This document shows positions 1 to 50,010 of a stretch of 64,000 nucleotides of DNA, piece after piece. The stretch's first letter is position 1. Each line of letters starts with the position of its first letter. Below the pieces are notes generated by a model, which searched no databases, was not told the DNA's origin, and was given only the letters and a program-made list of their open reading frames with translations. Position numbers and translations under genes: made by a program. The stretch comes from Owenia fusiformis (Eukaryota; Annelida; Polychaeta; Sabellida; Oweniidae): contig CAIIXF020000004.1 of assembly GCA_903813345.2 (NCBI GenBank), positions 22,881,985-22,945,984 on the forward strand, read 5' to 3'.

Positions 1-1847
1 ACCCCTGACGACAATGATAAAAAACAGTCATGTGATGAGGCAGTGTCTAATGCTTCTGTGGTAGGATCTAGCAGCGGCTCTGCTGATGAACCCACAGTAC
101 AGGATTTTGCCATAACCCCACATTCTACCCCTGATAGTGGAGTAAGCAGTTATGGACCCAAAGACATTCCTTTCAGGAATCGCGATGGCAGACCAGCTCT
201 TGTGTATCACAATAACTTCATGTGTGAAAATCTGGAGATGTGCGACGTTGATTTGGCGACATTGGAGAAAGGTAAAGCAAACACATTGTTCAAGTTAAAT
301 GCATCAGTTTATTCACTTGGTATATATTAAATGTCCAAAAATACTGCTACCCACCTAGTTACACAGACGTATCGTCAGTGTATCATGGCGGAACTACTTC
401 CGGGACTGGGTTTCAGTAAGATTTTTTTATTTCCCGATTTACACCTACTTATAAGTCACGTTGTGGATCATAATTTGGCTCGAAGTTAAGGAAGATAGTC
501 TAGTTTGAGAATGTGTCGATGGTTTAAGGTTTTATATATTAACGAGGACACAATTCACGTATTTAGTCCCTCGCTTTTGTTACACTGACGAACGACCAAT
601 ATCAGTGTAATATTGGCAATATTAATGTCGATCGTCCCTGTAACAAAAGCGAGGGATTTAATATGTGAAATGCGTCTTCGTTAACATACCAAACCTAAAA
701 CCATCGACACATTCTCAAACTAGACTATCTCCCATAACTTCGAGCCAAATTATAATCGTGATTTATAAGTAGATGTAAATCGAGAAATAAAAATATCTTA
801 CCGAATTCAAATCCCGGAAGTAGTTCCGCCATGATACACTGACGATACGTCTGTGTAACTAGGTGGGTAGCAGTGAAAAAGACATAGATCATGGTTTATT
901 TATGTAGTTCAATTTTATTTATTTTTTCAGACGTCATAATATCATTTCAAAGGCCCTTGCAAATGTTGTTGCAATGTCACACAATTCTAGTACCAAGTGA
1001 CTGTATTACTGATCATGTTTTACGGAATTGTTGGTCGTAAATGGCTTTGTATTGCGGTCAGTTTGCAGTAAACGTTTCTTGTGTTTGTTTTGTTAGGTGA
1101 CATCTTTCACAAGCACTCTCGACATGGTCTAACACGTAAAAAGCAAGTACTGGTGAAAGTTATAACGAATGCTTCAATGGAGTCCAATACATATGCAATA
1201 TCTTGGAATAGTACGCGGCATCCGTTAGTTCTCATATCTGAACTAATATCAGTGAACTGTAGAAAGGATAAAGGTATGGGTAATTCAATCATAATTCAAT
1301 CATATATACATATGTATATATCAGGGGTGGATCTGAGAACCAACAAGGGGGGGGGGGGCAAATTTCAGGTCAGAGAAAAAAATTTGGGCCCCTTAAACCC
1401 AAAAGTGGGCCCAAATTTTGAGGCCCATTTTCTTCAAAATTAGGTCTGAAATAAGGCCTTAAAAGGCCCAGTAATGACCAAAAAGGCCCACTTTTGGGAT
1501 CCTATCAAATTTTTTTGGGGCCCAATTTTTTTTTCTGGGCCCACCCCAGATCCGCCAGTGTATATTATGTAAATTATCTATCTTTGAAATTGACTACCTT
1601 AAATACTAGTACGTGTCGATTGTATAAAATATAGATTCTTATTCACATATAATATGTGTTCGTATCTAACCTACATCGTATAACACATGTATGCATTTCA
1701 GACCTCTATCTGCTGGTCCTAGAAACGACAGGAAGAACGTTTACATTTTCTACCAAGTCTGCAGATATTGTGAGGAAATGGTATAAGGGACTCAATAAGC
1801 TATTTGATATAGAGGTGGAGCTGAATACTTGTATTTGGAATCTCTAG
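1..1847 (+). CDS. Polyketide synthase copy A, 3' end only (linker after ACP plus C-terminal PH-like domain)
   Basis: Three coding exons are visible: 1-271 (open at the left edge), 1097-1273 and 1702-1847 (stop TAG at 1845-1847). Introns are 272-1096 (donor GTAAAG, acceptor TTGTTAG) and 1274-1701 (donor GTATGG, acceptor TTTCAG). Phases agree: the codons split across the junctions read Gly and Asp. The first exon encodes the low-complexity Ser/Asp-rich linker that follows the acyl carrier protein in copy B. The next two encode a PH-like domain, with the beta-strand [13 protein letters not shown] and the C-terminal helix containing KWYKGLNKL. The protein is nearly identical to the end of copy B (for example DSGVSS versus GGVSS in the linker), so it is a recent paralogue. 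No stop or frameshift is seen, so it looks functional. The KS to ACP part lies left of the window. Confidence 0.85.
272..1096 (+). other. Intron of PKS copy A, carrying a MITE
   Basis: This intron is 825 bases, against 271 bases (43430-43700) in copy B. Almost all the excess is the inverted-repeat element at 342-875. The remaining intron sequence aligns with copy B. Confidence 0.8.
342..875. mobile_element. Foldback MITE, 534 bp, in PKS copy A intron
   Basis: The left end begins TACTGCTACCCACCTAGTT and the right end is its reverse complement, AACTAGGTGGGTAGCAGTG. Inverted similarity extends over about 230 bases on each side. The flanks carry a 5-base AAAAA repeat (337-341 and 876-880). Copy B has one AAAAA and no insert at the homologous place, so this is a clean insertion with a known empty site. 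No coding sequence is seen. The superfamily is uncertain. Confidence 0.85.
1322..1560. mobile_element. G/C-tract MITE in second intron of PKS copy A
   Basis: This is an insert of about 239 bases, rich in GGGCCC and poly-G, poly-A and poly-T runs. It starts CAGGGGTGGATCTGAG and ends CCCCAGATCCGCCAGTG, so the ends are imperfect inverted repeats. It lies in a TATA-rich target. Copy B has a different element at the same intron position (43917-44989). The CAGNG termini suggest a hAT-like non-autonomous element, but the superfamily is inferred. Confidence 0.6.
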
Positions 1848-11052: not shown

Positions 11053-11098
11053 AACTGTCTCAAAAATCTTTGAAAGTCCTTGAAGTAGAGTTATGGGC

Positions 11099-12973: not shown

Positions 12974-12980
12974 GCATAAA

Positions 12981-13760
12981 ATGTATAATGTAAATATAAC
13001 TCTTTCCCAACTTGTGGTAAGTTAGTTACAAAAATATTTAGCTCAGCTGAAAAAGTGAAAATGAGTAAAAAGTAGCAAAATTGCCACATTCACCTGAAAT
13101 TGTTACATAATATATCATTTAATTGCTTTACATTGTGCTCATAAATCATTTCTAGCTATCTGTAGTTATTACTAGCATGCTTACACTTTAAGATATCAGT
13201 CTATTGAGGTGAAAATACAACCTTTATATGACAATATGTTAAATAAAGTGCCACGCCCACCTCTGAAATGATTACATAATTTCAATGTCATTTTATAAAA
13301 AATGCTCAACCTGCACAATTTTGCATCTTCCTAATATTTTATGTAGACACAATAAGGTATCCAAAAATGCAAAGAAAAAACTTTCTACTACAAAACGACC
13401 CCTACTGTGTCTACCGCTAGTAGTAAATAATTTCTACCGAGGTGGTAATAATTTTCACCAATGTGAAAATTCATGTAAAATTTTGAATTAAAAAAAAATT
13501 ATTCGAGGAAATTTTTTAATTAAAACTAAAATTCTTGATTCCGAAAAAAGTTCATGTCCCTTATAAGGCTTCGTACTGACATAATCAACGCCATAGAAAT
13601 CAGAGCAATATGCAAATGCCCTGTGATGAATCTTATTTTGTTTCATACAAAAATCATATATGGAACTAATAATTTTACGAAGAGCCGTGAATGGCATGGG
13701 ATAAATCTTATCTACTGGTCGGGATTAAATACGTGTACATGTTTGGGTGTGTTCCTCGTG
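12981..13760. other. Unassigned spacer right of the LINE
   Basis: AT-rich sequence absent from the corresponding flank of PKS copy B. The minus-strand frame 13488-13697 is open (contains FAYCSDFYGVDYV) but resembles no family I know. No repeat or RNA gene is seen. Confidence 0.35.
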
Positions 13761-25640: not shown

Positions 25641-28600
25641 ATGGATTTGACAAAAGCTGTAGCCATTGTTGGCGTAGCTTGCAATTTTCCGGGGGGTGAA
25701 GGTGTTGATAAATTTTGGGAGACTCTCGTGGAATCAAAAAATCATCCCAAAATTATCCCATCTGAGCGTTTCAACATCGATGCTTTCTATGATCCAAACA
25801 GGGATGCCAAAGGAAAAACGTACACAAAACATGCCGCCTTTTTGGACAGGTGAGAATTCAATTTTACTGTTAATTTGAGGTTTATTGTCTCTTTCAGAAA
25901 ACTATGCCATAAATGCACTAACATTTTGCTTTGTTTCTCAAATATTATTAGTGAGCTACATTGCTTTTGAAACAGCCACCAAGATAGAATTCATGAATCG
26001 TTGAGACGAATAGTTGTCATTTTCTTTAAAAAGATAATAACCAGCAGCAATTAGAACTAACTAACATTTACAAAAAGGCCTTCGTTAACGTTCTGTTTCA
26101 GAACCCATATTCTTAATATTTGTATTGGATTCTACTAATACTCTCCCACATGAATACTGTATGGCATTCGTAAGCGTCTATATTCGAATTTTTCAATTTT
26201 ATGCGTGATATTTAATTTTTTGTTGTTGGAATTTTTACTTTTCAATTCAAACTCTCAAATTTTGTTCATTCTTTTGAATTCAGTGTTTGATAATTCATAT
26301 TTCTTGTTTAATATTGCATTGTTCAATTAAAACTTTCCAGTTTTGAAAAAAAGATTTGGAAAAGCTAAACATCAAACACCATACCCTGCGCGCAGAGTCT
26401 AGTTAAACTACAAGACGAAGTTCTCTTTTAAGAAGTGAAGTCAAACGAATGCAAAGGGTACAAACACCAGAAATCGAGATGGCAAACACTGAAAAAATCT
26501 TTCATTGCTAGATCCTTCCCACATTTCATACATAAGTATTGCCAACTCAAGATTGGAGAAAAATGCTTCCTGTACACATTCCAAGAAAAATCTTAGAATT
26601 CAATATAAAACAGAATTCATAATTATTATGGCAATGATGAAAGTGAACCCACAAATCACAAAACATGAACCCAAAGTTTGAATTCCAAGCGTGCATTTTC
26701 TAAAATTCAAACAAATTATTAAAATTCGTCTCAACTAAAAACAGTTGTACTATCGACATTGTGTTTTTAACAGTGTTTTCGACTTCGACAATCGTCTCTT
26801 CAACATTAATGAGATGGAAGCATCCAGGTCTGACCCCCAGCATAGAATCACCCTCGAATGTGTCTTCAAAGCCTTTGAAGACGGAGGTTTCCCTTTAAAT
26901 GAGATGAGTGGCTCCAACACCGGCGTGTATATAGGTAAGGGCAAGTCAGAAATGAATCCGTGGGCGAAACACTAACTAGACAAAAGAAAAAGCTGAGGTG
27001 GTTAAGTCATCAGAAATAAATCCGTAGGCGTAACTAGTAATGTAACAAAAGAAATTTATGACAAGTGTGACCTCATCAAATGATTATGTATGGTTCTTAA
27101 CATAGTTTCATTGTGGTGGAATGTAGAAATCGTGTTTACTCAACTTGCATTTTATATTTTGTAACACCCCAGTCACATTTGTCGCACGGCGGCCGCAGGT
27201 CGACCGCAGAACAATTAAATTGGTGAATTTCTGCGGCGAGCGTAGAAAAACTTGCAGCCTCCGTGCGGCGAATGCAGATTTTTACAGGCCGCAGGGAAGG
27301 CGTAGAAATTATAACTCGGAGTTATAACACCCCAGTCACATTTCCTGCGGCCGCCGTGCGGTCTATCATTTCTGCGGCCAGTTGCTTTTCTACGCTCGCC
27401 GCAGAATTTCTGCGCTCTCATACTTTTGCAGTCACATTTCCCACGGCAGCCGCACGGTGAATTTTAAATTTCAGTTGATAAATGATACTTTTTTATTTAC
27501 ACCCCAGTCACATTTGTCGCACGGCGGCCGCAGGCGTAGAAAGGCGTAGAAATTATAACTCGGAGTTATAATATTTGTTCATTTCTGAGGTCCCCGTAGA
27601 AATCAACTGGCTCAACAAGATTGAATCATTATTTGTCAATGTTTCACGATCACTTTTCATTTGATATTACATCCTAGCACTATGAATAACATTTATAAAT
27701 TGTCCTGATGTAAATAAAATGAAAAAAAGTAATATTTATCAACAGAAATTTAAAATTCACCGTGCGGCTGCCGTGGGAAATGTGACTGCAAAAGTATGAG
27801 AGCGCAGAAATTCTGCGGCGAGCGTAGAAAAGCAACTGGGCGCAGAAATGATAGACCGCACGGCGGCCGCAGGAAATGTGACTGGGGTGTAACAAATTCG
27901 ACGAAATAAACCAGCTACTTATTCGAAATAGAAAATATGGCATCGTTTACTTAAACTCTAAAACGACCTTATACAAGTGTTCGTTACACCCCAGTCACAT
28001 TTGTCGCACGGCGGCCGCAAGTCGACCGCAGAACAATTAAATCGGTGAATTTCTGCGGCGAGCGTAGAAAAACTACGCTCGCCTTGCGGCCTCCGTACGG
28101 CGAATGCAGATTTTTACAGGCCGCAGGGAAGGCGTAGAAATTATAACTCGGAGTTATAATATTTGTTCATTTCTGAGGTCCCCGTAGAAATCAACTGGCT
28201 CAACAAGATTAAATGATTATTTGTCAATGTTTCACGATCACTTTTCATTTGATATTACATCCTAGCACTATGAATAACATTTATAAATTGTCCTGATGTA
28301 AATAAAATGAAAAAAGTATTATTTATCAACAGAAATTTAAAATTCACCGTGCGGCTGCCGTGGGAAATGTGACTGCAAAAGTATGAGAGCGCAGAAATTC
28401 TGCGGCGAGCGTAGAAAAGCAACTGGCCGCAGAAATGATAGACCGCACGGCGGCGGCAGGAAATGTGACTGGGGTGTTATAGTTTATTCTGAAGTCAGAG
28501 CATAACTATTGTACTATACTATAACTATGTGTCTATAAGTGTGTAATGAGCACATTCACTGAGACTCTGGGAGGTATAATCATCTTCAGAGGACAACAAT

Positions 28601-31600
28601 TCATGGATATCTTTTTAATTTAAAATGTCAAACTTTGCATTTCCTTTCGCTTTTATCCCCATTGTGCCTTCCACAGGCTTGGGACCAAAGAACATACTAG
28701 TATGCAACATGTGCACATGAACCTACAACTCTACTCCTAATTGGGCATAAGCATCAAGTGATTCCATCAATGATATAACTATCTGTGTCTGGGTTGTACT
28801 GCACCCATGTATAGTGAGATTTGGAGGGCACAAACATTGACTGTTTTTTCACAAATCTTTATTAACCATTATGGTATATTAATCTTTTTTATCTGTTTTT
28901 TTCACAAATCTTTATTAACCATTATGGTATATTAATCTTTTTATCTACTTGAAGATGCTCGTCTGTGTATCAATTTTTGGTTAACTTTATTAATAGCTAA
29001 AGTGAATTGACGTACATCGACTTATTCCCAGGTACTCACCCAGCTCTTTGCGCAACTATCTAGATCAATTAAATCTTGAGTTTTGAATTGGATTGTGTTC
29101 AATTTCACCAATTTAGATCTTCTTCATTTCGCTTGGAGAATCAATTCTTGACTTCTCATATATCTGTTAATTTGAAGGTTCGATGAACGACGACTACAGA
29201 CATGTGGCAGGGGAAACCTTTGACTCTGAAAACTACATGATTACCGGCACGGCTAAAGGCATCCTTGCAAACAGAGTTTCCTATACATTTAACCTGCTCG
29301 GTCCATCGCTGGCTGTAGACACGGCATGCTCATCCTCGTTGGTAGCCATACACCTGGCTAGACAGGCAATATTGGCAGGTATACGATTTATTTCTAATGT
29401 GATTAGTTACTTAATTTACTCGAGACTCTATACAGTTGAGCATTCTGGGGTCTAGAGAATGACGCTATTTCCCCCAAGGTTTAAAATACCAAAAGAAAGC
29501 GATAAGTGTTGGGAATAAGGATCTGATAAGATTACAGAGCTCTGGTGGTGACTGTGGACGCTTAACATTTTGCATCTTCTTTCTTCTTCTTTCTTGTGTC
29601 TTCCTTGTCACAAATGTGTTGTAGGGACATATATTTTATGTAGTTCTTTGTAGTTTCTAACTTTAATCTAAGCCTCATAGTTGTTTTCCTTTTCATTGTC
29701 CTCTTTGAGTCAACCCATCAGTTTTTTGCAATAGCTGGCATGCCATCTATTTAATTTTTAAATAATTTAATTTTTGAAATTGTTTACTGCACTGTTGCTG
29801 CTACATAAACACACTGCTTTTTTGCCATTATTCTTGGTTCGTTCCTTTTATACTATACAGTGAGGAACACCAAAACAAGCGTTCCATTTGCTAATTACTA
29901 AGGCAACCAGGGTCGGATAAAGCTTGTAGTCATGGTAGCATCCGTAGGGTGTTAAAAAACGGAACCCAAAGAAATCACTATCTTAGAAAATACTAATCCA
30001 ATTGTGTTCATTTTTCAGGAAAGAAAGAGGAGGCTGTGTATGTAGCTCCTGTTGTTTGTTAGTTGTAAAACATGATGTCTTGGACACCTGCTCTAAAGAC
30101 ATTAATATTAGAAAAATACGATATACGAATGGAAAATCGCTATATCATGAAAAATTCTAATTCAATTATGTTCATTTTTTAGGAAAAGAAAGGAGATACT
30201 GTGTACAGGGTGTCCCGAAAGTATGGGCCCCCTAGGCAGACATATAGCAGTGTCGTCATAGTATGTGGCATATATCATTTTAAAGCTTATCCAAAGTTTC
30301 ATTGATTCGCCAAGTATCATGGTTCAACTCTCAAATGTGAAAAAATTACAGGCATTTCAAAATTTAGTGTTTGGTCAAAATTAAGTTCAATTTTACACCA
30401 AATCACTAGTCAATGTGTCCTCCCGGGCCATCTTAACAGCAGCAATTCTTTTCGAGTCGGATGAATATTGGGTTGGAAAAAGAGAACGGTGAGGGTAGAA
30501 ACTCTAAGGAAACTCTTCTTAAGTCCCTTAACAGGTTTTAAAAGTGTTATAAAATTCCACACCCCTATTTGAAGGGCTTTTAAGGTCATATCTGAAAATA
30601 ATTGCTGCTGTTAACATGGCCAAGGGGGGACACATTGACTCAGAATGTGGTGTAAAATTGAACTTTATTTTGACAAAACACTTACTTTCAAATTGACTGT
30701 AATTTGGGAGTTAAACCATGATACTTGGCAAATCAATGTTACTTTGGATAAGCTTTAAAATGATATATGACACATACTATGAGGACACTGGAATATGTCT
30801 GCCTAGGGGTGGGGGGCATACTTTCGGGACACCCTGTATGTATAGCTCCTGTTGTTACTTAGTTGTAAAACATAATGCCTTTGACACCTGCCCAAAATAC
30901 ATTTGTACTCAGAAAATACGAAACACAGTCACAGGTGACTGCCACAGTAATAAAACCTAATAACTTTCACACCATAGTGTTTTAGCAAAAATTATCCTTA
31001 TTCAATGTGTTGTGAATTTGTCGAGTTTATGAAGAACACTCCAGGGACTTTACAGCCATGGTCAAAATTCCTTCTGAAGTCTGCCTGAACCAGAGCTTTT
31101 GACTGCGATTTGAAAGCATTTGGTTCCATGACTGTAAAGTCCCTTGAGGGATTTTGATTTCACTCTACAGATTTAACATACATTGAATGAAGATGATTTG
31201 TGTCAAATTTGAAGAGCCAAAACACTATGGTTAGGAAGTTATTTAGGTTTTTTTCGGTTGCAGTCATCCCTGACTGCGTTTCTCGTTTTTTCCTAGTACG
31301 ACTGTCTTTTGAGCAGGTGTCCAAGGCATCATGTTTTACAACTAACCATCTACAGGAGCTATACATACACAGTCTCTTCTTTCTTTCCTGAAAAATGAAC
31401 ATAATTGAAGTAGTATTTTTCAACATATAGCAATTTGTTTGGGTTGCGTTTTTTAACACCCTGTACAATTTCAATGTCTTTTTTAGATAGGGGTTCAAAA
31501 ACTGCATTTGAGTACTGGAATTTCGGTCTTACTAGTCCATTAAAAAGCAAAAAGGTGCTAACTCGAACAATTATGTTTGTCTATTGTCTCTACTAAAAAA

Positions 31601-34600
31601 AATTGTTATTTAAAAGCGGTCAACTTTTTGGGACATCTGACATATTCAGTTGGCACTTCAGATTTAGCAAAAATTATCCTCATTCAATGTGTTGTGAATT
31701 TGTGGAGTTTTATTATAAGATCACTCCAGGGACTTTACAGCCATGGTCAAAATGCCTTCTGAAGTCTGCCTGAACCAGAGCTTTTGACTGCGATTTGAAA
31801 GCATTTGGTTCCATGACTGTAAAGTCCCTTGAGGGATTTTGATTTCACTCTTTGGTTTTAACATACATTGAATGAAAATGATTTGTGCCAAATTTGAAGA
31901 GCCAAAACACTATGGTTAGGAAGTTATCTAGTTTTTTTGCGGGTGCAGTCACCCCTGACTGTGTTTCTCGTATTTTCCTAGTACAGGTGTCTTTTGAGCA
32001 GGTGTCAAAAATGAACATAATTGAAGTAGTATTTTTCAACATATAGCAATTTGTTTGGGTTGCGTTTTTTTATACCCTGTACACTTTCAATGTATTTTTA
32101 TATAGGGGTTCAAAACTGCATTTGAGTTCTGGAATTTCGGTCTTACTAGTCCATTAAAAAGCAAAAAGGTGCTTACTCGAACAATTATGTTTGTCTATTG
32201 TCTCTACTGAAAAAATTGTTGTTTAAAAGCGGTCAACGTTTTGGGACATCTGACATATTCGCCTCTGGGAAGTAAGTTACCCAGACAGAACGGTGTCTCT
32301 TAGGTCAAATCATTAAGGAGATTTGAGTGATACGTTTTTAAGACACTTGTACGTGAACGTTTGGAATTATGGTCCACTCTGGGTCGGTTCTCCCATTTGT
32401 ACTGTTTACTTGACCAATTGAGTATATGGGTAAACGGAATATAATTGAAATTTTATATCTGGGAAAGGAGTGGTATCGATATGGTGAACTTTTTGAACAC
32501 GCGTTTCTCTTTAACAAATGTCAAAACATTCTGAAAAGTTTACACATCGTCAATTTAATGGTCATCTTTTGGATGGTAACATTATAATTTGAAACATATA
32601 TATATCCTTTCTCTATATTTTGTTTTAGAAAACACATCAGACACTTCTATTGTTGTTGGTATCATATGTTCGGAATGAAATGAAACATCCATCTGAACCT
32701 CATTGGAACAATGTGTATATGCTATTTTGTTCCGAAAAGGTTCGGAAAGACATTTTATTTCATTCTCAAAAATTGGTAGGAAGGATCAAAAAACAATGGC
32801 ACTAAAAAACAAAAAATCTTAACAAAAACAGTTATATAAAATATATATAAACAATTTTTGCATTAAATTGTTGTCAATCAGTCAACATTACATAAAGGAT
32901 CGAATTTTTACAGAATTTTTTAAATAATTGGTTAAAGAGAAAAACATTTTTGAATTCAGTTCACCATATCGATACTTATCCTTTGGGATTTTCAAAATTG
33001 ATCCTTTCAACACACATTTTCCGATTTTCTTGACTGTTTTTTTCTCTTTCAAGTTCTCCATCTTAGTATAACAATCACATCTTTGTATCTGTTTAATCTC
33101 TTATATAAAGTCCTATCAGGATGGCTTTTCTCTAAAAATATTCAATTAAAATTTTCATCTACAAAATCTAACTTTGTAGTCTGTGATGAATTTGAAAACT
33201 CTCCCTAGCAAGAAGTTAACTCAATTTCTCTATATATAACTTCATAGCCAGATATTCCGTCTAGCGTTATTTCTCTTGGCATCATTTTTCTATTCAATTA
33301 CATGACGAGTTTCTTTCATTCTTGAGGTTCTGCCTCAGTATACCGCACAATCATTGATGACTAGGAACTATAGTTCAAAAACAAGACTGAAGTGAAGTTA
33401 GTTGAACAGGTATCCTTTGAGTTTGTAAAAACTAAAGAGCTCTTCTGACCTTTCTTTCCAAATTGCTTGTATCGTCCATTATGCTTATTCTGGTGAATTG
33501 TGTCAAAGGGTATGTCTTAAAGTATTTAAAAAATATTTTAAGTATTTTATTATTGGACCTAATTCAAACTAAGAAAACTCCCCCAACCTAACCTTGATTA
33601 GTAACATGATTAGCTATATATATATTAGTTTATATATTAGATTAGACGATGTATTAATGATGTAAACTCTTCAAATGTATAATGCATGTACTTCTTTGCG
33701 AATGTACTTCTTTACTTCTTTATGAATGTTTGTTGTTCTTCTTTTTGCATGTACTACTTTTTAATTTTCCCTATTTAGACAGTTATATTCCATTAAACCC
33801 AGCATATTAGATATGGCAGAGCATGCTCTAAATATTTAGATTTTAAGTCAAGACACAATACTCTAGTGATCAAACTGTAAGTTCAAGGTTATACTTGTAA
33901 AAAGCTTAATAAATACTTTCTGGGAGCCATGGTTTTCTCCTGATGACCATTGTGAATTATTGTGTTTTATGGATTATGGCGACGGCTTTTGTGAATGGAT
34001 GTTGACCCTTTGAAACGCCTATGGACTTGGAGACTGGATTTAATCTATCCCACATCATTTGAGACTGAATGATCTATCTTGTATGAGTATTTGTATCTAC
34101 AACTATTTTTGATGTTATTAGTATTGGCTATCAATTTCTAATTTTTTCTTCAACATGTATTGTAATGACTTCAGTATGAATGAAATGTCCCTTGGTGTTC
34201 TGGTCTTGGATTGTGATATCGGTTCTTGAATGGTGGGGGAAAACAGGTATTAGGCATTGTTTCTTTTCACGTTAGATCATGGTATTGGGCTATATGGGGT
34301 TTGTTTTTCTAGACTGGAATGCACTTAGAGTTTGCTTTTTCTTGCAATTGCTAAGTTCCATTACAACTTTTGGTCCTTTCCGTTTGGCACTCGTGCTTTG
34401 ATATTTATACATTTTTATATATTTACTGTATTCGTATTGTTATTGTTTTAAAAGTTAAAAAGTTTTAAAAGCCCCGATAATCTGTGGCCGTGCAAATAAA
34501 TAAATAAATATAAATACAAAAACTATGTTCCATAACATATTTTGTACTATTATATAAAGGAGATTGTGATATTGCTGTCTGTGGAGGAACGAATGTAATA

Positions 34601-35269
34601 CTGACCCCTTACATGTTTGTCGACCTTTCAAAGGCACGAATGGCATCTGAGAAAGGACAATGTCATGCTTTCTCAGAAGATGCTGATGGGTACATTAGAG
34701 GCGAGGGGTGTGGTATTGTGATTTTGAAATCTGTGGAACAGGTACGTTAAAATTGCATATTTCCATACTCATTTCAAGAAAAAAAATTATTACATGTACG
34801 TGACAACTACAATACTTTTTTTGTTACTTGACCACTACAATACTTTAAACACAAGATTGATTGTACATCACTCTTGTGTTTAAAGTATTATAGTGGTCAT
34901 ACACTCCCCTCGATAAATTTGGCAACCTTAGCCCCCCCCCCATTGAACTACATGTAAAAGCTTCTTTACCTTTGGATTTTTATTTACTTAACCTGCGATG
35001 AAAGTACTTAAACTATTGATGGAAACCTAATTAACGTTGCCAAACTTATGGAGGGGAGTGTATGTTCATTGATCATTATGTTTTTTTTCTAAAGGCTCTG
35101 AGGGACAATGACAGAATATGGGGATATATTGGAACTGGAATAAACTCAGATGGTCGCTTTGAGACCCCGATGACAGCCCCTTCCATGGAAAGACAACAGA
35201 AACTTATGGAACATGTTCTCGCAAAAATGGATGTTGATCCTAAACACATAGACTTTGTGGAAGCTCATG
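25641..35269 (+). CDS. PKS copy B exons 1-5: ketosynthase N-terminal four-fifths
   Basis: Exon 1 gives the KS opening ([13 protein letters not shown]). Exon 2 gives [20 protein letters not shown]. Exon 3 gives [13 protein letters not shown] and the active-site [14 protein letters not shown]. Exon 4 gives [10 protein letters not shown] and [11 protein letters not shown]. Exon 5 gives [12 protein letters not shown] and ends in EAHG, whose TGT continues in exon 6. Introns are 924, 2243, 5181, 353 and 2331 bases and consist largely of MITEs. The codon split at each junction reads the expected KS residue (Ser, Gly, Gly, none, Gly), which fixes the splice sites. Confidence 0.85.
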
Positions 35270-38200
35270 GTGAGTGCATTCGTAGACTTTGAGATGCAAA
35301 AATATGCATATGATTCTTTTAGAGACTTATATTGTAAAGCAATAATGTATGATCAAATTATACCATTGAATACACAGTGTCAAGTATATCTTTATTTCTA
35401 AATATATCTATTTTCTCAAAAAGTTGGTATTTTCCCAGTATTTTTCGAGAAACTACCATGGGAGTTCCGAAAATTTTGTTTTTGGGATACGATTGTCCAA
35501 ATTCAAAATCGATTAAAGACTTAAAACAGAAAATTAAAAGTACATTTTTACACTTTCCTCACAAAATATGAAAGACAACTTCCAATATATGCCATCTGTA
35601 TTTCCTCGAAAGGTGACGGCAACACCAAAACAAATACAGTCAGTTTTTTTTCATTTCATGATGAATTATACGGAGCAATGTGTGTCATATTATATCATAT
35701 TTCATGTCATATAATAAATCACACCATATCATATGGTATATATTCAATGCTTTATTGTACTAAAAATCCCTTTCGGGAAAATGTACAGCAAATAAACATG
35801 ATAAAATTAAACTAAAACTATACATATAATAACATACCATGCAAAAATTTGCAGGTACAGGTATATCAGGAATATAGCAGGTATATCATATTACACTATA
35901 TATCATATCTTTATCATATTGTTATCATATCATATATCAAACAATATCAAAACATTATATTTGTACCATATTTCATAACGAATATCATACTAAATATCAT
36001 ATCATGTATAATACCACATATTATATATTTATAATGTAATATCATTGGATCATATCATTTATAGTATATTGTGTCAAAAACAACGGCACCCCCCTCTACA
36101 GCAAAAACTCCTTAATGTTACATAGCATGTCATATATCATTTGAAAGATAATTTAATTCTGGAGTTACTCATCAAATTTCATTTAATAAAACTTTAAATT
36201 ACAAAAGTTGCATTGTTTTGAAGTTTGCTACTTCGGTACTTTGTTTACTGCTTTGTTACTGGTTTAAGGTCAAATCTTGGAAATGATTAATATGTAGGAA
36301 ATAGCCCAGATCTCATCTATGCTGAACAAATAGGTTCAATTATGAAAGACAGGGTAGGGGAATTGATGGATAGGGGGCCTCATGAAACTGGATACAGTAA
36401 GGATGTATTTCTGAAGAGTATTAGGAAAGTGCTTCAAGGATTATGCAATGCTGAACCTTCCTTTGAATCTTCATTGAAATCATATTCATCCTGATTAGCT
36501 GCTTTTTGAGCAGCAAGTGGTGGCCATATCAACTACTTATAATCAGCTGTAAATCTGTAAAATCATATCATACAAAGCTGAAATTTCTCAAGTAACTCCA
36601 GAATTAAATTGTCATTAAAATGGAATATGACACACTATGTAACATTAAGTACATTTTGCTGTAGAGGGGGGGGGGCTGTTGTTTTTTGACACCCTGTATA
36701 TATTTATTAATCTTATCTCAAAACTAAAAAGATTTCATCTGGGCTCTGAAAAGTCCATGTGCAGTATGGCAAGTGATTTTAGGTGATCATATCTTTCACC
36801 ATGAGTACTCCCTAGGCATAAATACAGTGTTTTCTATAAAAATAACATGTTTTATTTTTAGAAAAGTACCCATGATGATTAAAATATCAATCAAAAAATT
36901 CATAAAATTATGAATAGGGACCTATATCAACAGTTTTTTCAAAATGTTGAACCTATTTACTCAAACGAGGATCTCCTTTTTCTGATTTTTATTGCATGAA
37001 AAGATCATTCAAAAAGGGGTCTAAAACTTCTTCAAAAGTAGAATGGTATTGAAATTCTAGTTTTAAAGATATCAATTTTCGATGACCAAAATTATGCTGA
37101 AAACAATGGATAGCAAAAGTTTTCCCTATGGGAAAATAACATGGGATATGTGGTTTTAAACTTTAACGCATTTAAATACCAATCCCCTTTTCAGAAGTTG
37201 TTAATATAGTGTAGAAGAAAGTTTCGATATGGTTAAATTGAGAAAAACAAGATCCTCTTTTTAGAAAATAAGCCAACATTTTTAATAAGTGCAGAGGTGG
37301 GGTCCTAAACAATAATTTTCAGAGAGTTGGATAGATATTTAACTATCATGGGGACTTCACTTGAAAGAACACATATTGTTTTAATAAAAAAACACTGTAT
37401 TTATGGCCAAAAAGTACTCATTGTGAAAGATATGACCTTCTAAAATCACTTACCATACTGCACATGGACCTTTCAAATTTCTGTTTATTAAGACTTTAGG
37501 TCGGTTAAAATATATGCATCACAAAAAAGCAATTAAATCACATTCCCATCATTCAGCACTCTTCTGAACGAATATGGTAAAGAAAAAATATTTATTATAG
37601 GAACCGGAACCAAAGCTGGAGATCCGATAGAAGCAAAGAGTATAGGATTGGCAATAGCAACCAAACGTCCTAAAGAATTTGGTCCCTGTCCCGTTGGGTC
37701 AGTAAAAACGAATATCGGGCATACAGAATCAGCAGCCGGGGTAGCAGGTCTTATAAAGATTTTACTCATGATGGCACACGACCAGATTGCACCTTCCATT
37801 ATTTTCAATAGACAAAACCCAAAGATTGACTTTGAAAAGTTAAACATGAGATTGCCGAAAGAAATTGAGGTTTGGTCCAAACATCCTGAAAAACCACGAC
37901 TAGCCTCGCTCAATTGCTATGGATTTGGAGGAACAAACTCTTTTGGAATAGTCCAACAGCACTTGCAAGATAAGACACCAACTTGTGAAATTCGCACAAA
38001 GGTGATAGTTGTCATTTCAGCTAACAACGCATTATCTCTGAAAGAATCAACAAAAGACTTGTTGACAAGTTTAGAGACAGTCGAAATAGAACTTAAGCAG
38101 CTTGCATACACTTCGACTGTCAGACGAATGCACTATGATAGGAGGATCGCTATAGTCGGTGCCGACATTGCAGAGATAAAGAAAGGACTAGAAGTACATC

Positions 38201-41200
38201 TAGATACTATTGATACAAAGCAGAAACAAAAGGAAAAGCTTCAAACAATATTTGTATTTTGTGGGATGGGGACTCATTGGCTTAGTATGGGTGTTGAGAT
38301 GCTTACAAACCATGTTAAGAGTGCTTTCTCACAGACTCTAATTAGCGTCGATGAACATATCTCAAAGAGCGAAGGATGGTCATTGATCGACAAGTTAAAA
38401 ACTCAAAGTGATTTATCCGACCCTTCTGTAGGCCAACCTGCAATATTTGCGATAGAAGTGGCTCTTGCACGACAGTGGATGGAGTGGGGCATCACACCAA
38501 CCTGTGTAATAGGTCACTCAGTGGGAGAAATAGCAGCATGTTGTATTGCTGGAAAACTATCTCTGAAAAATGCAACTGATGTAGTGGTAGCACGTGGGAA
38601 ATGCATCCAGGAAGCGAGTGGAGGGAGCATGCTTGTTGTGAGCAATTATGATATCACACGTATCAAACAAGAGGCCAATACTTTCGACGTAGAGATTGCT
38701 GCAATAAATAGTCAAACATCGTGTACACTGTCCGGAGCTAAAAAGAATATTACATCACTGCTCGATCATCTCAATAATGTAAAACAGGCAGAAGGCATCA
38801 ATATATTCCTACGAGAGCTAGACGTATCGGTTGCCTACCATAGTAGATTCATGGATCCTATCTTGGGAAAACTGAAGACTGAACTGAACCACCTCAGTCT
38901 GCATCCTCCATTGATTGAACTACATAAGCCGCATTTCATATCATCGGTCACTGGTGTACCTGCAACGGGAAGTGATTATATTACGGTTGAGTACTGGTTG
39001 CGAAATGTAAGGCAGACAGTCTTGTTCAGGGATGCCATGGAAACAGCGATTGATAGCTCGTGCCATAACATAATTCTAGAGGTCGGACCGCGACCAGCAT
39101 TGAGGAAAAATATAAAAGACATCGTCGGAAAATATCCTCATACAATTTTGTCATCATTCAAACAGAACGAAGAATGGTCCTCCCTGATAGCTTCCCTAGG
39201 GCGATTGTATGAACAAGGTTTAGACGTAGATTGGAATAAGGTTTTCCTCGTCAAGTATACACCAATTCCATTCCCGAGGTATCAATTCAAACGTAGTCAT
39301 TTGAAATATTACCCAGATGAGGCAGAAATTCTGTACACAACCGGAGAAATTGGAAATGTTGGTAAATTACAAACACATCCGTTCATAAAAAGCTGTCTTG
39401 ATGAAGGACATTTTGTATGTGATGTAAGGAGAGACACGATGCCATTTGTATTCGACCATAAATCATCAAATAGGATACTAATTCCTGGTGCCACATACGC
39501 AGAGCTAGGCATGAGCTGCTCTATGATTTGTAACAAGCGACTGGCTCTTTCTGAATGCGTGTCAACTTTTATTCAGTTCATCAGTCCATGTACGCTGGAC
39601 AGCGACAATTCTACGAGGAATCTAGACATACGCATTTCCAACGAGAAAAGCAATATCACGGAATTTACAATCAGTTCTGAAAAAACGACCCATGCAGCTG
39701 GCTCAACGACGATTTTCGAAAGTTATACAGGTGAAACAAGCATTGACGTTAGGCAGATTGAAACCAGATGTCAAACTGAGAAAGATGGAACTGTCGTGTA
39801 TAAACAATTAGAGAAATTCAAGTTTACTTATGGCCCTAGCCTGCAAGGAATAAAAAGCTACAAAACTAATGGCAAAGAGTGGCTCTTGAAGTTTTCAACT
39901 CCAAAATCGATCGTCGTTGAGAAAGACAGGATGCTCATTCACCCGTCAGTCCTGGACAACATCCTCGAACCTCTTGCCCTTGTTCCAGTAGATGGAGATA
40001 TTGCATTTCCATTCGAACTCGGAAAGTTGACAGTTCGAAAAAGCATACCTTCTGATGCTTTGATCTACATAAGATCAGAATCGACCCAAAGAGATTGTAT
40101 CGTCTGTCATGCAGCATTGTTGACAAACACTGGTGAAGTGGTAGTTGAATGCAAAAACATAATATTGCGGTTCCTTACGGGAGAGAAGATCTTGCACCAA
40201 CCTGATGTTTCATACAATATACACTGGGAGAAGTTGCAGACTGTAAGTCACCCTGAAAATATGTCAAACTCAAAGAAATGTCTTATTCTGGAAGATACAA
40301 ATGGCATATTGAAGAAGCTACGGCCATTTGTCAATGCAGAATCGACATTCATCTCTCCCCCTACAGTGGACTCTTATGAAGACTTCATAGGAAGAAATCT
40401 TTCCTTAGAAAACATACTGAGATGTCACACTGACACCTTGGGCGATTATGAATTAGTTATATTTGCCTGGGGAATTCCTGAGATAGAAGACATTGATATT
40501 CAATCTAGGATGGTTCAAGTTGAAACACCTATTTTGTTTGCATGTTCAGCACTGAGACAACTTGTCCAATGTATTTATAGAGTGTCTTCTAAGACGCCTC
40601 TATATATTGTAACAAAAGGTTCACAGTTTTTTCACGATATCGGATCACCTATTGATCTATGTGGCAGCTCTATTTGGGCTATGACTCGAGCATTGGCAAT
40701 GGAGAGAGTCTTTGATCACCTTTTCCTGATAGACTTTTCAACTGGTTGTAACTCAGAAGTTGAAAGCTTGATGTATCATATATACCAAACTCCCGACCAT
40801 TCTGAATTGGTATTTAAAGCTGGTGAGGTCTACACAAACCAGATCAAACCGTACGTTAGTCGCTCAACTGACCATCGATTAGCCATCTCAGAAAGCAATA
40901 CTACCAATGGAGTACTTGTATCAGCTGCATCGGCGGCAATAACTGATCCATCTTTTATTATCATGAATAGAGATGCTCCAACTGAACCTAGAAAATCAGA
41001 ATGCCTTGTACATATTGACATGTTTAGGGTATGTAGAAATGATTTGGTTCAGCTAGACAACAATTCAGAAAGCAATACCCTTGATGTTGAACCCTGGAGG
41101 GTGACATCTCACAAATATGGTTATCCCGTAAGGGCAGTTGATTTCGTTGGCCGTGTCCGAATTCAAAACAAAAAAAGAATTGAAGAGGTCCTTGTGTGTT

Positions 41201-44200
41201 ATCCTCATGTAGTTCAAAGGGATGTGGTTGTTCCTAAGAAATGTGTAATCCCTTTGAGCAAAATTCCAATCATTGCAAAATTAACTTGCATGTCACTGTG
41301 CGTCATTGGTTGGGAAATTATTGCTAACCATCTTAAAATGAAAATTTCAGCCATTTGCATGTGTGGATTTGAACAACACAAAGACCTCAGTCACGTTCTA
41401 CGGAGTCTTCTTGAAGCATCTCGCATACAAATTGTAAAAGATATCGAAAAGTCAAGTCATGTAATTATTCTCATTGACGACCAACTTTCCAAAGAAGAAA
41501 TTCAAAAGATGCGAATGGCTGAAAAACTGAAGCAAATCGTTCTTATAGAAACAATAAATTCTACCAAAAACAGTAACGCTGTTTGCCAGTCCCTCAGCCA
41601 TAAGACAGATATATCCATTTTACAAACGCTACTGCTGCTCAGTCCATACAACTTACAGCGAAACCTTGGAAAAGTCATTGATTGGATAAAATCTGTAAAA
41701 CCCATTCTGAATAAACTTCAAGTCCACCAACTTACAGAACCATCGGATTTCAATGCCCTCAAAGATCCTGATGCTGACAATGAAGCCATTTATGTCTGTA
41801 ACTTAAGGCAATGTCCCCGCGAGGACGGATTATCGAGGAAGCATTGTCTCAGAGGAAAATGGCGAAGTAATTCAGAGAACAACACACTTGAAGAACTGAA
41901 CAGAGATGTGTGTTCAATTCAAGAATGTACAAAGTCAATTGAACAGTTGCCACGAAATTGCGATAACAATCACCCAGTGATTGACAATTCAGTGAGTCAA
42001 TGTTTCCCGGTTTATGTTGGACAAGAGTATTTATTTAGACCAGATGCAGCTTACATCCACGTGGGGGGCACAAGTGGCCTCACCACAGAATTAATAAAAC
42101 ATATGGCAGGAAAGAGAGCTGGCTATCAGATTATTCTGTCAAGGTCCGGTGGGAAGAAAACTGAGGAAATGATCAATATCGAACGTGAATTTTGTGTCAA
42201 CATTATCACTTTTGCAGCAGATGTCACCAAATTAGATACACTGCATGTTGCGGTTGGGGATTTCAATCAACTTCACCCTGGAGTGCCAATTAAGGGAATA
42301 TTTAACGGAGCAGTCATTCTTGACGATGGACCCTTGGCAACTATGGACGAGACAAAGTTCCAAGGGCCGACAAAACCTAAAATACAAGGTTCGTGGAATC
42401 TTCATCTGTTGTCATTGGGTATGGATTTAGATTTTTTCGTGATGCATTCTTCAATGGCATCAATATTTGGAAACCCTGGTCAGAGTAACTACTGTGCTGG
42501 TAATGGTTTTCAAGATGCCCTGTCACTTTTTAGACGGTATCATGGATACCCTTCTTTGACAATTAACTGGGGAGCTTTGGATTTGGGAATCCTGAAGAGA
42601 AATTTGAAGTCTCAGAGCGTACTAAAGAAAGATGGAATAAACATGTTAGATGCTAGATGCATTGCCGAATGCTTTGACTTTGCACTAACGGCTAATCCCG
42701 AACAAATTTCTTTTGTAAATGCCAACTGGAAGACAATATTCAAATCCAGAAAGATCATGTTAGGAATTATGGGGAGAAGATTCGCCGATCTGATGAAAAC
42801 CCATTCCGCGGAAACATATGAGGTTCTCTCAAAAGGGGCTCAAGCAGAGGATGAAAGAGTCTCATTATTTGCTGACGTCACGAAAACAAGAGGTGTTCGT
42901 GGAAAGTTGAAGAATCTATTGGCAAAATTAGTGATGACTGATGAAGATCAGATGAACGACTCGACGTCAATTGTAGAATTTGGTATAGATTCAATAGTTG
43001 TAGTTACTCTTCAGTCAGATATATCGAATACTTTTGGCGCAGATATTCCTATTGTGGACCTACTGAGTGACACTACCACAATTTCATATCTAGTAAAGAA
43101 ATTAGGTGGTGACACTGACGGTGACGAGACAGGTGATGAAGTTCAAATGTATGACTTGACCCCTGGCGACAATGATAAAAAACAGTCATGTGATGAGGCA
43201 GTGTCTAATGCTTCTGTGGTAGGATCTAGCAGCGGCTCTGCTGATGAACCCACAGTACAGGATTTTGCCACTACCTCACATTCTACCCCTGTTGGTGGAG
43301 TAAGCAGTTATGGACCCAAAGACATTCCTTTCAGGAATCGCGATGGCAGACCAGCACTTGTGTATCACAATAACTTCATATGTGAAAATCTGGAGATGTG
43401 CGACGTTGATTTCGCGACATTGGAGAAAGGTAAAGCAAACACACTGTTCGGGTGCACTTGACATATTAAATGTTCAAAAAGACATAGAATAAGATCATGG
43501 TTAAATTATGTAGTTCAATTTAAGTAAATTTCAGACTTCATATTATCATTTCAAAGGCCCTAGCAAATGGTGTTGCAATGTCACACAATTCTAGTACCAA
43601 GTGACTGTATTACTGATCATATTTTACGGGATTGTGGGTCGTAAATTGCTTTATATTGTGGTCAGTTTGCAGTTAACGTTTCGTGTGTTTGTTTTGTTAG
43701 GTGACATCTTTCACAAGCACTCTCGACATGGTCTAACGCGTAAAAAGCAAGTACTGGTGAAAGTTATAACAAATGCTTCAATGGAGTCCAATACATATGC
43801 AATATCTTGGAATAGTACACGGCATCCGTTAGTTCTCATATCTGAACTAATATCAGTGAACTGTAGAAAGGATAGAGGTATGGGTAATTCAATCATAATT
43901 CAATCATATACATATACAGGGTGGTCCAAAAAATGGGACACTCGTATTCCAAAAATAAATATTGATTTTCTTGATGAAAACATGTCATATTATTACCAGT
44001 GGATATGGAATTCACTTATCTATAATTTGGTATATCATAAGTTCAAATTTATTATAATGTCTGTCAACCAGCGTCCGTTATATAAATGACGTCATTTTAG
44101 TTTCAAAACGGGTTTTCCAAAATTTGCAAAAACAGACGTTCAATATGTCCACCATTTTGATCAATTATAGCCCTAAATTTTGGCCTAAACTGGTCAAAAA

Positions 44201-45293
44201 CATCATTGCTATTCTGTTGAGACAATGGATTCCACTTCTCAACAAGTCTATCTTTAATAAGGGACTGAGTAGATGTAAGGGGTTCATGGTAAACCAATTC
44301 TGTAGGTTCTCCCAATACATGGTAGTTGCAGACGTTGACATCGCATTATCCAATTATGTTGTTTTTAAACCATCCTGATATGAGCTCATTCTCGAATGAT
44401 TACATGTTCCAACAAGATGGGGCTCCAAGCAATAGATCTCACAAGAGTGTCAAATGTTAAAAGGAAAATGTGCCTAGATTCATCCCATAATTGCTGCCTC
44501 CCCCAGATCATATCACACGATCACCCAACGTCTGCGACTACCAGTACGTATGGGGAGAACTTACAGATTTCGTGTACCATGAATCCTTTACATCTATTCA
44601 TTCTCTTGAGGACAGAATTGAATTAATGAGAAGAGAAGTGAAATTCATTGTCTAAACAGCATATCAATGATGCTATTGGCCAGCTTAGACCGAAATTGAG
44701 GGGTACAATTGCTCAAAATGATGGACATATGAAACGTCTGTTTATGTAAATAGAGTTGACAATAAAACTTGTTTTTGTAAGTTTTGGAAAACCCGTTTTG
44801 AAATGAAAATGACGTCATTCATATCATGGACGCTGGTTGACAGACATTATAATAAATCTGAACATATGATATACCAAATAAAAGATCAGTAAATTCCCTA
44901 TCCACTGGTATATAATATGACATGTTTGCATCAAGAAAATCAATATTTATTTTTGAAATAAGAGTGTCCCATTTTTTTGGACCACCCTGTATATATTATG
45001 TAAATAATCTAACTTTGAAATTACATACCTTGACTACCCTAAATACTAGATAGTACGTGTCGATTGTTTGAAATATAGATTCTTATTCAACATTTAATAT
45101 GTGTTCGTATCTTAACCTACATCGCATAACACATGTATGCATTTCAGACCTCTATCTGCTGGACCTAGAAACGACAGGAAGAACGTTTACATTTTCTACC
45201 AAGTCTGCAGATATTGTGAGGAAATGGTATAAGGGACTCAATAAGCTATTTGATATAGAGGTGGAGCTGAATACTTGTATTTGGAATCTCTAG
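25641..45293 (+). CDS. Reducing animal FAS-like polyketide synthase with C-terminal PH-like domain (copy B, complete)
   Basis: Eight exons with matching phases: 25641-25849, 26774-26934, 29178-29378, 34560-34741, 35095-35269, 37601-43429, 43701-43877, 45148-45293. They join to 7080 bases, or 2359 residues. All junctions are GT/AG. Domains: KS about 5-440 (Cys174 in DTACSSS, His309 in EAHGTGT, His350 in NIGHTES); AT 525-830 (Ser616 in GHSVGE, His723); DH 890-1170 (His929, Asp1095); a structural pseudo-KR about 1177-1410; a degenerate ER-like region about 1420-1690 lacking the glycine-rich NADPH motif; KR 1790-2010 (GGTSGL, Lys1903, Ser1927, Tyr1940); ACP 2060-2135 (Ser2107 in FGIDSI); a Ser/Asp linker; and a PH-like domain about 2235-2345. 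There is no thioesterase or methyltransferase. It is expected to build a partly reduced polyketide or fatty-acid-like chain from acyl- and malonyl-CoA. The product and release mechanism are unknown. The start [11 protein letters not shown] fits a KS N-terminus. Confidence 0.85.
25850..26773 (+). other. PKS copy B intron 1
   Basis: Donor GTGAGA, acceptor TTTTTAACAG. AT-rich, with no recognisable element or ORF. Confidence 0.7.
27164..27890. mobile_element. Cluster of GC-rich MITEs in PKS intron 2 (nested copies)
   Basis: It begins ACACCCCAGTCACATTTGTC and ends in its inverse. The terminal repeat recurs at 27328 and 27499, so at least three partial copies are joined or nested. The arms contain GCACGGCGGCCGCAGG and CTGCGGCGAGCGTAGAAA, unusually CpG-rich for this AT-rich region. 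No ORF longer than background is seen. Confidence 0.75.
27986..28477. mobile_element. Second GC-rich MITE of the same family, 492 bp
   Basis: This is a complete copy bounded by ACACCCCAGTCACATTTGTC and AAATGTGACTGGGGTGT. Its interior closely matches the right part of the cluster at 27500-27890, including the AT-rich centre (TTCACGATCACTTTTCATTT). Confidence 0.8.
28838..28943. repeat. 52-54 bp tandem duplication
   Basis: TTTTTTCACAAATCTTTATT through GGTATATTAATCTTTTT occurs twice in tandem inside PKS intron 2. Confidence 0.8.
29990..32262. repeat. Repeat complex in PKS intron 3, including a 683-bp tandem duplication
   Basis: Units beginning TTTAGCAAAAATTATCC at 30981 and 31664 run in parallel to about 31663 and 32262. 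They share the whole block CAGGGACTTTACAGCCATGG ... GACTGTAAAGTCCCTTGAGG, itself an internal inverted repeat. Around them, a TGTAAAACATGATGTCTTGG-type module appears in both orientations (30060, 30860, 31330). A minus-strand frame at 31400-31550 reads [20 protein letters not shown], a LINE RT C-terminal block. Confidence 0.7.
30206..30836. mobile_element. Tc1/mariner-like MITE, 631 bp, nested in the repeat complex
   Basis: Ends are CAGGGTGTCCCGAAAGTATG and its inverse, flanked by TA on both sides. It interrupts the phrase GATACTGTGTA|TGTATAGCTCC of the surrounding repeat. Arms of about 110 bases pair well. No transposase is present. Confidence 0.8.
32461..32987. mobile_element. Foldback MITE in PKS intron 3
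   Basis: Ends share GTATCGATATGGTGAACT in opposite orientations, then TTCTCTTTAAC. It is about 527 bases with no ORF. Confidence 0.55.
32988..34559. other. Remainder of PKS intron 3, including a dispersed LINE-tail-like repeat
   Basis: 34265-34410 (CTAAGTTCCATTACAAC, GGTCCTTTCCGTTTGGCACT) matches in inverse 63300-63420 in the NHE intron, so it is a dispersed repeat, probably a LINE 3' region. The rest is AT-rich without recognisable content. It ends at the acceptor ATAAAG of exon 4. Confidence 0.5.
34827..35063. repeat. Two nested hairpins filling PKS intron 4
   Basis: TTGACCACTACAATACTTTA (34827) pairs with 34876-34901. TACACTCCCCTCGATAAATT (34901) pairs with 35035-35063. The intron is only 353 bases and is mostly self-complementary. 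Confidence 0.65.
35680..36062. repeat. Degenerate ATATCAT/CATAT microsatellite
   Basis: Repeated TATCATAT and CATATTAT words in PKS intron 5. The 61-codon frame at 35849 is a by-product. Confidence 0.7.
36071..36696. mobile_element. Tc1/mariner-like element with transposase remnant
   Basis: Ends are GTGTCAAAAACAACGGC and the inverse of TTGTTTTTTGACACCCTG, with arms extending through the CTACAGCAAAA and GGAGTTACT blocks. Inside at 36297-36494 a plus-strand frame of 65 residues reads [20 protein letters not shown] and ends at TGA. This is the C-terminal end of a Tc1-type transposase, around the third acidic residue (N-S-P-D-L-N-P-I-E-x-x-W in active elements, changed here). It is an internally deleted element. 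Confidence 0.7.
36715..37500. mobile_element. Foldback MITE immediately upstream of PKS exon 6
   Basis: TCCATGTGCAGTATGGCAAG (36752) pairs with 37448-37470. GAGTACTCCCTAGGCATAAA (36800) pairs with 37395-37425. It is about 0.78 kb with no ORF, ending about 100 bases before the exon 6 acceptor. Confidence 0.65.
37601..43429 (+). CDS. PKS copy B exon 6: single 5.8-kb exon from KS C-terminus to post-ACP linker
   Basis: The exon opens with [12 protein letters not shown], completing the KS His motif, and runs 1943 codons without a break through AT, DH, pseudo-KR, pseudo-ER, KR and ACP. The acceptor TTATTATAG and donor GGTAAAG bound it. DH reads [13 protein letters not shown], where the usual HxxxGxxxxP has Asn for Gly, and its second half has YGPSLQGI and [11 protein letters not shown]. 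The ER-like stretch keeps [14 protein letters not shown] and [12 protein letters not shown] but no Gly-Gly-Val-Gly motif. KR keeps [20 protein letters not shown]. Downstream of the ACP come about 110 residues rich in Ser, Asp and Gly, also present in copy A. Confidence 0.9.
43701..45293 (+). CDS. PKS copy B exons 7-8: PH-like domain
   Basis: Exon 7 (43701-43877) reads [20 protein letters not shown] ... ISWNS ... [12 protein letters not shown]. Exon 8 (45148-45293) reads [20 protein letters not shown] ... [13 protein letters not shown] ... WNL and stops. Strand pattern, the basic first loop (K-H-S-R-H ... R-K-K) and the invariant Trp in the last helix fit a PH fold. The basic loop would be the phosphoinositide site in a lipid-binding PH domain. 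Phase continuity from exon 6 (split Gly codon) and identical exon lengths in copy A (177 and 146 bases) show these are genuine terminal exons of the synthase. Confidence 0.8.
43917..44989. mobile_element. Mariner-like element with two inverted transposase C-termini, in PKS intron 7
   Basis: Ends are CAGGGTGGTCCAAAAAATGG and its inverse, within TA dinucleotides. Arms of about 180 bases pair. Minus-strand frame 44103-44315 ends [20 protein letters not shown]. Plus-strand sequence 44400-44740 contains [14 protein letters not shown] and, with stops, [21 protein letters not shown]. Both are the same C-terminal part of a mariner-type transposase in opposite directions. Copy A has no such element. 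The host intron is 1270 bases because of it. Confidence 0.75.
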
Positions 45294-49455: not shown

Positions 49456-50010
49456 CGGTAAACACGATACAAATATATGTCATATTCCGCAACGAATATG
49501 GCATATTCACTTGTGGTGTATGACAGATCCACCTGCGGTATATGGCATTCTCACTAACCAATGAGAACGTGATACGGAAGTACGTAATTGTCAATTCAAT
49601 CGATTGAACAAACGGGTAAAAGTTTATAAATTATTGAAATGATTACTGAATCATCAGTACAGTGCATTGAATATATCAACTAATGCAGAAATATCACCCA
49701 GCAATCTCACGTGATAAGCGCAGTTTTACATTTAGAGTTGATTCTGGCAAACAATCAAATTAGGGCTTTCTGTATCATGTTTTCACCTGCGGTTTATGTC
49801 ATACTCACTCGCGGTATATGGCATATTCCGCAAGTGAGTATGACAAATTCCGCAGGTGAGTATCGGATATTCACTGAAATTAATGTATCGCATATTCACT
49901 GCGGAATATCCCATACTCACCTACGGAATATGCCATATACCGCAGGTGAGTATGGCATATTCATCCGTATCACAAATACCGCGCAACCATGAATATATGC
50001 CATATTCCGC
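49455..50010. repeat. Second array of GCGGTATATGGCATATTC-type palindromic units
   Basis: Same array as 3668-4275, with shared flanks but different unit numbers and order, including GCATATTCCGCAAGTGAGTA and TATCGCATATTCACTGCGG. Confidence 0.7.

Follow-up and report, generated by a model that had tools for sequence, protein, structure and literature searches.

Can an animal polyketide synthase (PKS) end in a PH-like domain, and what would such a domain do for the enzyme? The question is raised by a PKS gene of Owenia fusiformis. The window (the whole stretch of DNA analysed, 64,000 nt, corresponding to 22881985-22945984 of contig C4) contains this gene, here called A, and the end of its tandem neighbour, B. 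An earlier note on the window had described A as a synthase that carries a PH-type ending in place of a thioesterase. We examined the exon model and domain content of A, the distribution and conservation of its C-terminal tail, and the similarity of the tail to PH domains.

Gene A encodes a type I PKS

Gene A was modelled with 8 exons on the + strand, encoding a protein of 2359 aa in the type I PKS order KS-AT-DH-KR-ACP. The exons and the ACP are located as follows (window coordinates).

25641..25849, + strand: exon 1, KS start; based on the GT donor, the frame and a Pfam KS match, with ATG 25641 as the proposed start
26774..26934, + strand: exon 2, KS; based on AG/GT and phase
29178..29378, + strand: exon 3, KS with active-site DTACSSS
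34560..34741, + strand: exon 4, KS
35095..35269, + strand: exon 5, KS
37601..43429, + strand: exon 6, containing the KS end, AT, DH, a region without ER match, KR, ACP, linker and conserved preface
42904..43092, + strand: ACP within exon 6 (Pfam PP-binding, E 1.4e-9, protein residues 2078-2140; coordinates computed from the exon model)

All seven introns are of the GT-AG type, and the joined frame contains a single stop, at its end (45293). Pfam identified ketoacyl-synt (E 9e-85), Acyl_transf_1 (1e-46), PS-DH (3e-15), KR (6e-44) and the PP-binding match listed above, such that KS, AT, DH, KR and ACP lie on one chain, as in an animal type I PKS. At E 0.01 the gene A protein gave no match to any thioesterase or ER family, in agreement with the absence of a thioesterase described in the earlier note. 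The translation contains DTACSSS, EAHGTGT, GHSVGE and GIDS, which we take to be the KS, AT and ACP catalytic motifs, intact by sequence; the KR catalytic motifs look intact as well. The AT and ACP motifs are also present in B and in two further paralogues, C and D, introduced below. The DH motif in exon 6 reads DNILE in A and DNILQ in B, C and D, a difference that may weaken the dehydratase of A. Between DH and KR, residues ~1240-1790 of the protein (exon 6) gave no Pfam ER match, and parts of this region resemble a decayed ER by eye.

When the KS-AT region of A was compared with PDB chains, PKS chains matched with E-values down to 1.4e-201 (in two stretches) and CurL with 1.7e-148 (in one stretch), whereas FAS chains gave 4e-87 to 1.2e-83, all among the best 60 of 87 rows. 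By this comparison the enzyme looks like a PKS and not an animal FAS-like PKS (AFPK), and the "FAS-like" label that it had been given earlier does not hold; the AFPK identity was rejected on KS-AT similarity to PDB chains and not on the published KS-HMMs or tree. According to passages of PMC10764717, AFPKs are reported from molluscs and arthropods only, and for most AFPKs of mo-clades 1-3 it is not known how the product is offloaded. The AFPKs (EcPKS1/2) resemble the gene A enzyme in being animal megasynthases, with mo-clades 1-3 lacking a thioesterase (passages of PMC10764717), but differ in that the KS-AT of A is nearer to solved PKSs than to FAS.

Mollusc PKSs are given two architectures, with or without a C domain, and the thioesterase is given for FAS, in passages of Lin et al. 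2024 (PMC10764717). Gene A is like the mollusc clade without a C domain as described there, being an animal type I enzyme with few introns that cluster towards the N-terminus; A has five KS introns followed by one very large exon. The lack of a thioesterase is ordinary, as echinoderm PKSs are also described without one and SpPks1 makes its product without it (excerpts of PMC11414698). SpPks1 and CrPKS share this property with A, but KR is inactive there and the excerpts mention no C-terminal PH-like domain.

The reading frame continues past the ACP into two further exons

The C-terminal part of gene A is organized as follows.

43105..43323, + strand: linker of 73 aa, rich in Ser/Thr/Asp/Glu (18 S/T, 15 D/E, 3 K/R) and poorly conserved
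43324..43429, + strand: conserved preface peptide, ending in LEK
43701..43877, + strand: exon 7, 177 nt, phase 1-1, first half of the PH-like domain with the basic first loop
43912..44994, no strand assigned: repeat element with inverted repeats in intron 7, outside the protein
45148..45293, + strand: exon 8, last strands, C-terminal helix with the invariant Trp, and stop

The earlier note had proposed that the frame is carried past the ACP and linker into two more exons, and the GT-AG sites, the phases and the single stop all agree with this. The donors (GT after 43429 and after 43877) and acceptors (AG before 43701 and before 45148) are exact, and both introns are in phase 1. Intron 6 is 271 nt long. 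Intron 7 is long (1270 nt) because a repeat element is inserted at ~43912-44994. The termini of this element form a perfect inverted repeat of 22 nt and its long inverted arms are imperfect, and at least 25 other near full-length copies with 84-91% identity are present in the genome (40 of 655 candidates scored).

The tail is shared by four related PKS genes

The genome (498 Mb, 525 contigs) was searched with the tail. Nine matches were obtained. Eight of them are strong and correspond to exons, with a pair at each of four loci; the ninth is weak (E 0.165) and contains a stop. The four loci lie on three contigs: A and its tandem neighbour B, C on contig C9, and D on contig C11. At each of them a PKS main exon precedes the tail; the main exon of A shares 93% identity with that of B, 64% with that of C and 66% with that of D. 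A search with the preface peptide gave four matches, all at these same tail-bearing genes. In the linker of D before the tail the preface also seems to have been repeated, with DDRPVLAYKNK and GRPAVAYNNN next to each other as two diverged versions of the short motif.

The intron positions and phases of the tail agree in all four paralogues. Exons 7 and 8 measure 177 and 146 nt in A and B, 177 and 128 nt in C, and 162 and 164 nt in D. The neighbouring paralogue had been said to keep the same ending with identical exon lengths, and this was the case for B, of which the window contains the following parts.

1..271, + strand: end of the main exon (remainder upstream of the window)
1097..1273, + strand: exon 7
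1702..1847, + strand: exon 8 with stop

Between A and B, exon 7 is identical at 173 of 177 nt and exon 8 at 145 of 146 nt, and the introns contain two alignable blocks of more than 100 nt that are 89% and 85% identical. An inverted-repeat element of ~530 nt (343-874, 85% self-complementary) lies in intron 6 of B and is absent from intron 6 of A; this element and the repeat in intron 7 of A account for the large differences in intron length between the two genes. Similar clusters of 22-nt repeats (ATATGACAGATTCACCTGCGGT type) are found downstream of both PKS copies, at 3711-4220 and 49496-49938, and together with the similar 3' flanks they fit a segmental duplication of ~43-46 kb. Retroelement remains lie between the copies at 10375-11106 and 11825-13021 on the - strand (RVT_1 E 4e-31, Exo_endo_phos_2 E 1e-11), and an imperfect CATTG-type tandem repeat of ~1.1 kb occupies 16644-17719. 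Ten ORFs of at least 120 aa, from 21 stop-to-stop ORFs in the window, were scanned; two are retroelement parts and eight had no Pfam match at E 0.001. No tailoring gene was found among these ten unspliced ORFs.

For contrast we turned to the genes that combine a KS with a strong KR match, seven in all, corresponding to the top 7 entries in a listing of 37 KR matches; this set leaves out two KS matches on contig C6 and probable FAS genes (C1 and C9:34.7 Mb, identity inferred). Four of the seven carry the tail. In the other three, two on contig C7 and one on C10, the frame of the ACP exon reaches a stop ~10 residues past the ACP, and two of them end in GKVGLSG. No tail-like sequence was found within 1.8-2.5 kb downstream of their ACP exons, the best chance match (E 0.095) being inside a main exon. 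Two of these three genes have a GT before the stop and could possess a further exon of another kind. As the three other PKS genes examined reach a stop after the ACP and show no tail-like sequence in the stretch searched downstream, we conclude that the tail characterizes a single group of PKSs.

The tail is under purifying selection

Pairwise dN/dS of the tail was 0.24 (A-C), 0.22 (A-D) and 0.24 (C-D), rough values given that dS among A, C and D is just above 1; bootstrapping over codons placed the 95% limits between 0.09 and 0.45. The linker gave higher values for the same pairs (0.40, 0.36 and 1.15). Elsewhere in the protein, KS, AT and DH were below the tail (0.11-0.18) and the middle region between DH and KR, which evolves faster than the catalytic domains, was close to it (0.21-0.29). 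In the recent pair A-B, dN/dS was 0.20 in the tail versus 1.72 in the linker, based on few differences. The ratio pN/pS of the tail was 0.37-0.43 in frame versus 0.77-1.63 out of frame. From these data we conclude that the tail is under purifying selection in the joined frame.

Similarity of the tail to PH domains

The PH-type pattern that had been read from the sequence of A, consisting of a basic first loop, RTFTF and a Trp in the last helix, is present in its entirety. The Trp (W125) is invariant in the four tails and aligns with the sole invariant column of six PH domains, whereas RTFTF is kept in three of the four tails (RTITF in D). Residues K45, R48, K54 and K55 of the first loop (tail alignment numbering) are identical in all four, and the basic first loop is among the best-conserved parts of the tail.

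Pfam PH_2 matched all four tails, with E-values of 0.00036 (D), 0.0045 (C) and 0.012 (A), B being counted without an E-value of its own. Pfam PH matched two of the four, and PH_12, PH_14 and Mcp5_PH matched one each. Tail D aligned with positions 7-104 of the 105 of Pfam PH (E 0.0089) and was also matched by PH_12, Mcp5_PH and PH_14. However, no PH match passed its curated Pfam cut-off: PH_2 reached at best 21.3 of the 22.2 bits required, and PH 17.0 of 25.1 (D). As this cut-off was missed, we call the tail PH-like and do not file it as a member of the PH clan. Twenty shuffles of tails A and D matched eight Pfam families, none of them PH, with a best E of 0.021. Two unrelated families fell in the same E-value range as some of the PH matches, DUF6807 (E 0.0026, one of four tails) and WhiA_N (E 0.013, two of four). 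We took both as noise in view of the few tails matched; their E-values are below the best of the shuffles, and the noise floor for real sequences is therefore not clean.

A second PH profile was built from 11 domains, comprising PDB 1mai, 9 of 28 PF00169 matches and 1 of 7 PH_12 matches; the remaining matches, which were fragments or contained internal stops, had been excluded beforehand. On this profile the scores were 7.8 for tail A, 11.9 for B, 12.7 for C and 9.3 for D. The score of the corresponding tail was reached by 4 of 1000 shuffles for A and by none of 1000 for either C or D (B was not shuffled). Reversed tails scored 1.4, 5.2 and 0.7, and the highest score among 770 overlapping 110-aa segments of PKS proteins was no more than 6.1. 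When true PH domains were withheld from the profile one at a time, their scores ranged from 12.1 to 44.0, and the lowest of these was exceeded by C but not by A, B or D. Similarity to the PH profile was beyond chance, more weakly so for A by itself. The match covered positions 13-96 of the 97 of the profile for C, 32-95 for A and 62-95 for D; the short spans of A and D indicate that the C-terminal half carries most of the PH signal. The phmmer and hmmsearch listings against PDB chains contained no PH protein, and hhalign of the tail with six PH sequences gave a probability of 1.8% over 26 columns, which was uninformative.

The closest likeness is to PH domains of the PLC-delta type (PDB 1mai; Pfam PH_12/PH_14) and to plant PH_2, with which the tail shares a KG start, the basic first loop and a C-terminal helix with W-x-x-G-L. 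In the alignment with the PLC-delta type, the strand S-E-L-I-S-V is like I-E-D-I-Q-E-V. The differences are that the similarity is sub-threshold and that the domain is joined here to a PKS and there to a phospholipase. These sequence comparisons support PH-like homology of the tail.

Structure models

Two AlphaFold2 models of the tail had mean pLDDT values of 46.5 and 47.6. The models were poor because the alignments held only the two near-identical tails of the window. The PH fold is a barrel of seven strands that a C-terminal helix caps. In the second model, tail residues 58-116 form six strands and residues 119-133 a helix, with residues 1-85 below pLDDT 50; at this low confidence, the order of strands and the last helix fit the C-terminal half of a PH domain. 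Foldseek with the low-confidence models returned nothing below E 0.08, and PH chains were not on top. In VIA with the low-confidence model the top rows were ribosomal chains with Z up to 5.9, and nothing was significant; these ribosomal-protein matches span low-confidence parts of the model and were not taken as real. Three VIA rows aligned with the poorly modelled stretches trimmed, namely IRS-1 PH-PTB (Z 4.9), FRMPD4 FERM (Z 4.8) and PYK2 FERM (Z 4.5), all of which we take to have PH-superfold lobes. Weighing the evidence for and against, we think it highly probable that the tail is a PH-superfold domain.

A possible role for the tail

The preservation of a PH-like tail in four related genes suggests attachment of the enzyme to either a membrane or a partner protein. 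Our preferred reading, to which we assign a probability of roughly 0.55, is that the PKS is tethered via the flexible acidic linker by the PH-like domain, most likely to a membrane. A single gain, before the four genes diverged, would have added the PH exons at a phase-1 intron; because exon 7 has phase 1-1, its insertion at such a site leaves the frame intact. The domain would serve to keep the synthase at a membrane, where the basic first loop would contact acidic lipids or phosphoinositides. In an alignment with PLC-delta, K45, R48, K54 and K55 lie at or near its basic inositol-phosphate-binding positions. The first-loop positions match the inositol-phosphate ligands of PLC-delta only in part. 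The location of these residues would favour membrane attachment, which is plausible. The missing thioesterase makes a tethering as well as a docking role attractive, since either cyclisation or a partner is needed to release the product, and a tether would bring ACP and acceptor close to each other. The ACP-bound product could then be finished or handed over at the membrane by a partner enzyme or by self-cyclisation.

The main alternative is docking to protein. In this case the PH-like domain would recruit a partner, for instance a scaffold or an enzyme that releases or tailors the product in trans, with the preface in the interface. PH domains bind both lipids and proteins, and many bind proteins or nothing measurable; the superfold also includes the PTB and FERM F3 protein binders, and it was IRS-1 PH-PTB and the FERM chains of FRMPD4 and PYK2 that aligned with the trimmed low-confidence model. 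Docking would also fit a preface that is conserved and matched only at these four genes, in an enzyme in which Pfam matched no releasing domain. However, few parts of the tail are conserved as well as the basic first loop, as would be expected of a lipid site. We regard docking as a serious competitor of membrane attachment but, on this evidence, the less likely of the two.

That the tail is a genuine translated domain of another small fold, beta-sheet plus helix but not PH, would be compatible with the missed curated cut-offs and with the ribosomal chains on top of the fold searches made with low-confidence models. It is difficult to reconcile with matches to several PH families, none of which was obtained with shuffles, with the lower scores of the PKS-fragment decoys, and with a C-terminal half predicted as strand-strand-strand-helix that contains the conserved Trp; we consider this explanation improbable. 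Finally, although the unspliced frame of exon 6 would stop ~10 codons past the donor (stop-to-stop ORF end 43461), a gene-model artefact in which the enzyme ends in exon 6 and exons 7-8 are pseudoexons or read-through into a neighbouring gene is very unlikely and was rejected, as the intron positions and phases are the same at four loci, selection acts in the joined frame, and all eight strong tail exon matches fall at the four PKS loci.

Membrane tethering by the PH-like domain could be extended to a family of PKSs in which the type of phosphoinositide determines, through this built-in domain, where the enzyme acts. Assembly would then be switched on, or the product delivered, at one membrane compartment, and hand-over at the membrane side would replace the thioesterase; this extension is speculative and less likely to hold than not. 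A literature search of partial coverage found no PKS-PH fusion, and neither 'pleckstrin' nor 'PH domain' occurs in the main text of PMC10764717; such a fusion may be known or widespread in relatives. As far as this partial search shows, the PH-like tail may be a previously undescribed variation on the animal PKS.

How animal synthases without a thioesterase release and deliver their products is largely an open question, and a putative targeting domain built into a PKS would provide a direct handle on it. Such an enzyme would also suggest that animal megasynthases can take up signalling-type modules at the C-terminus by exon joining.
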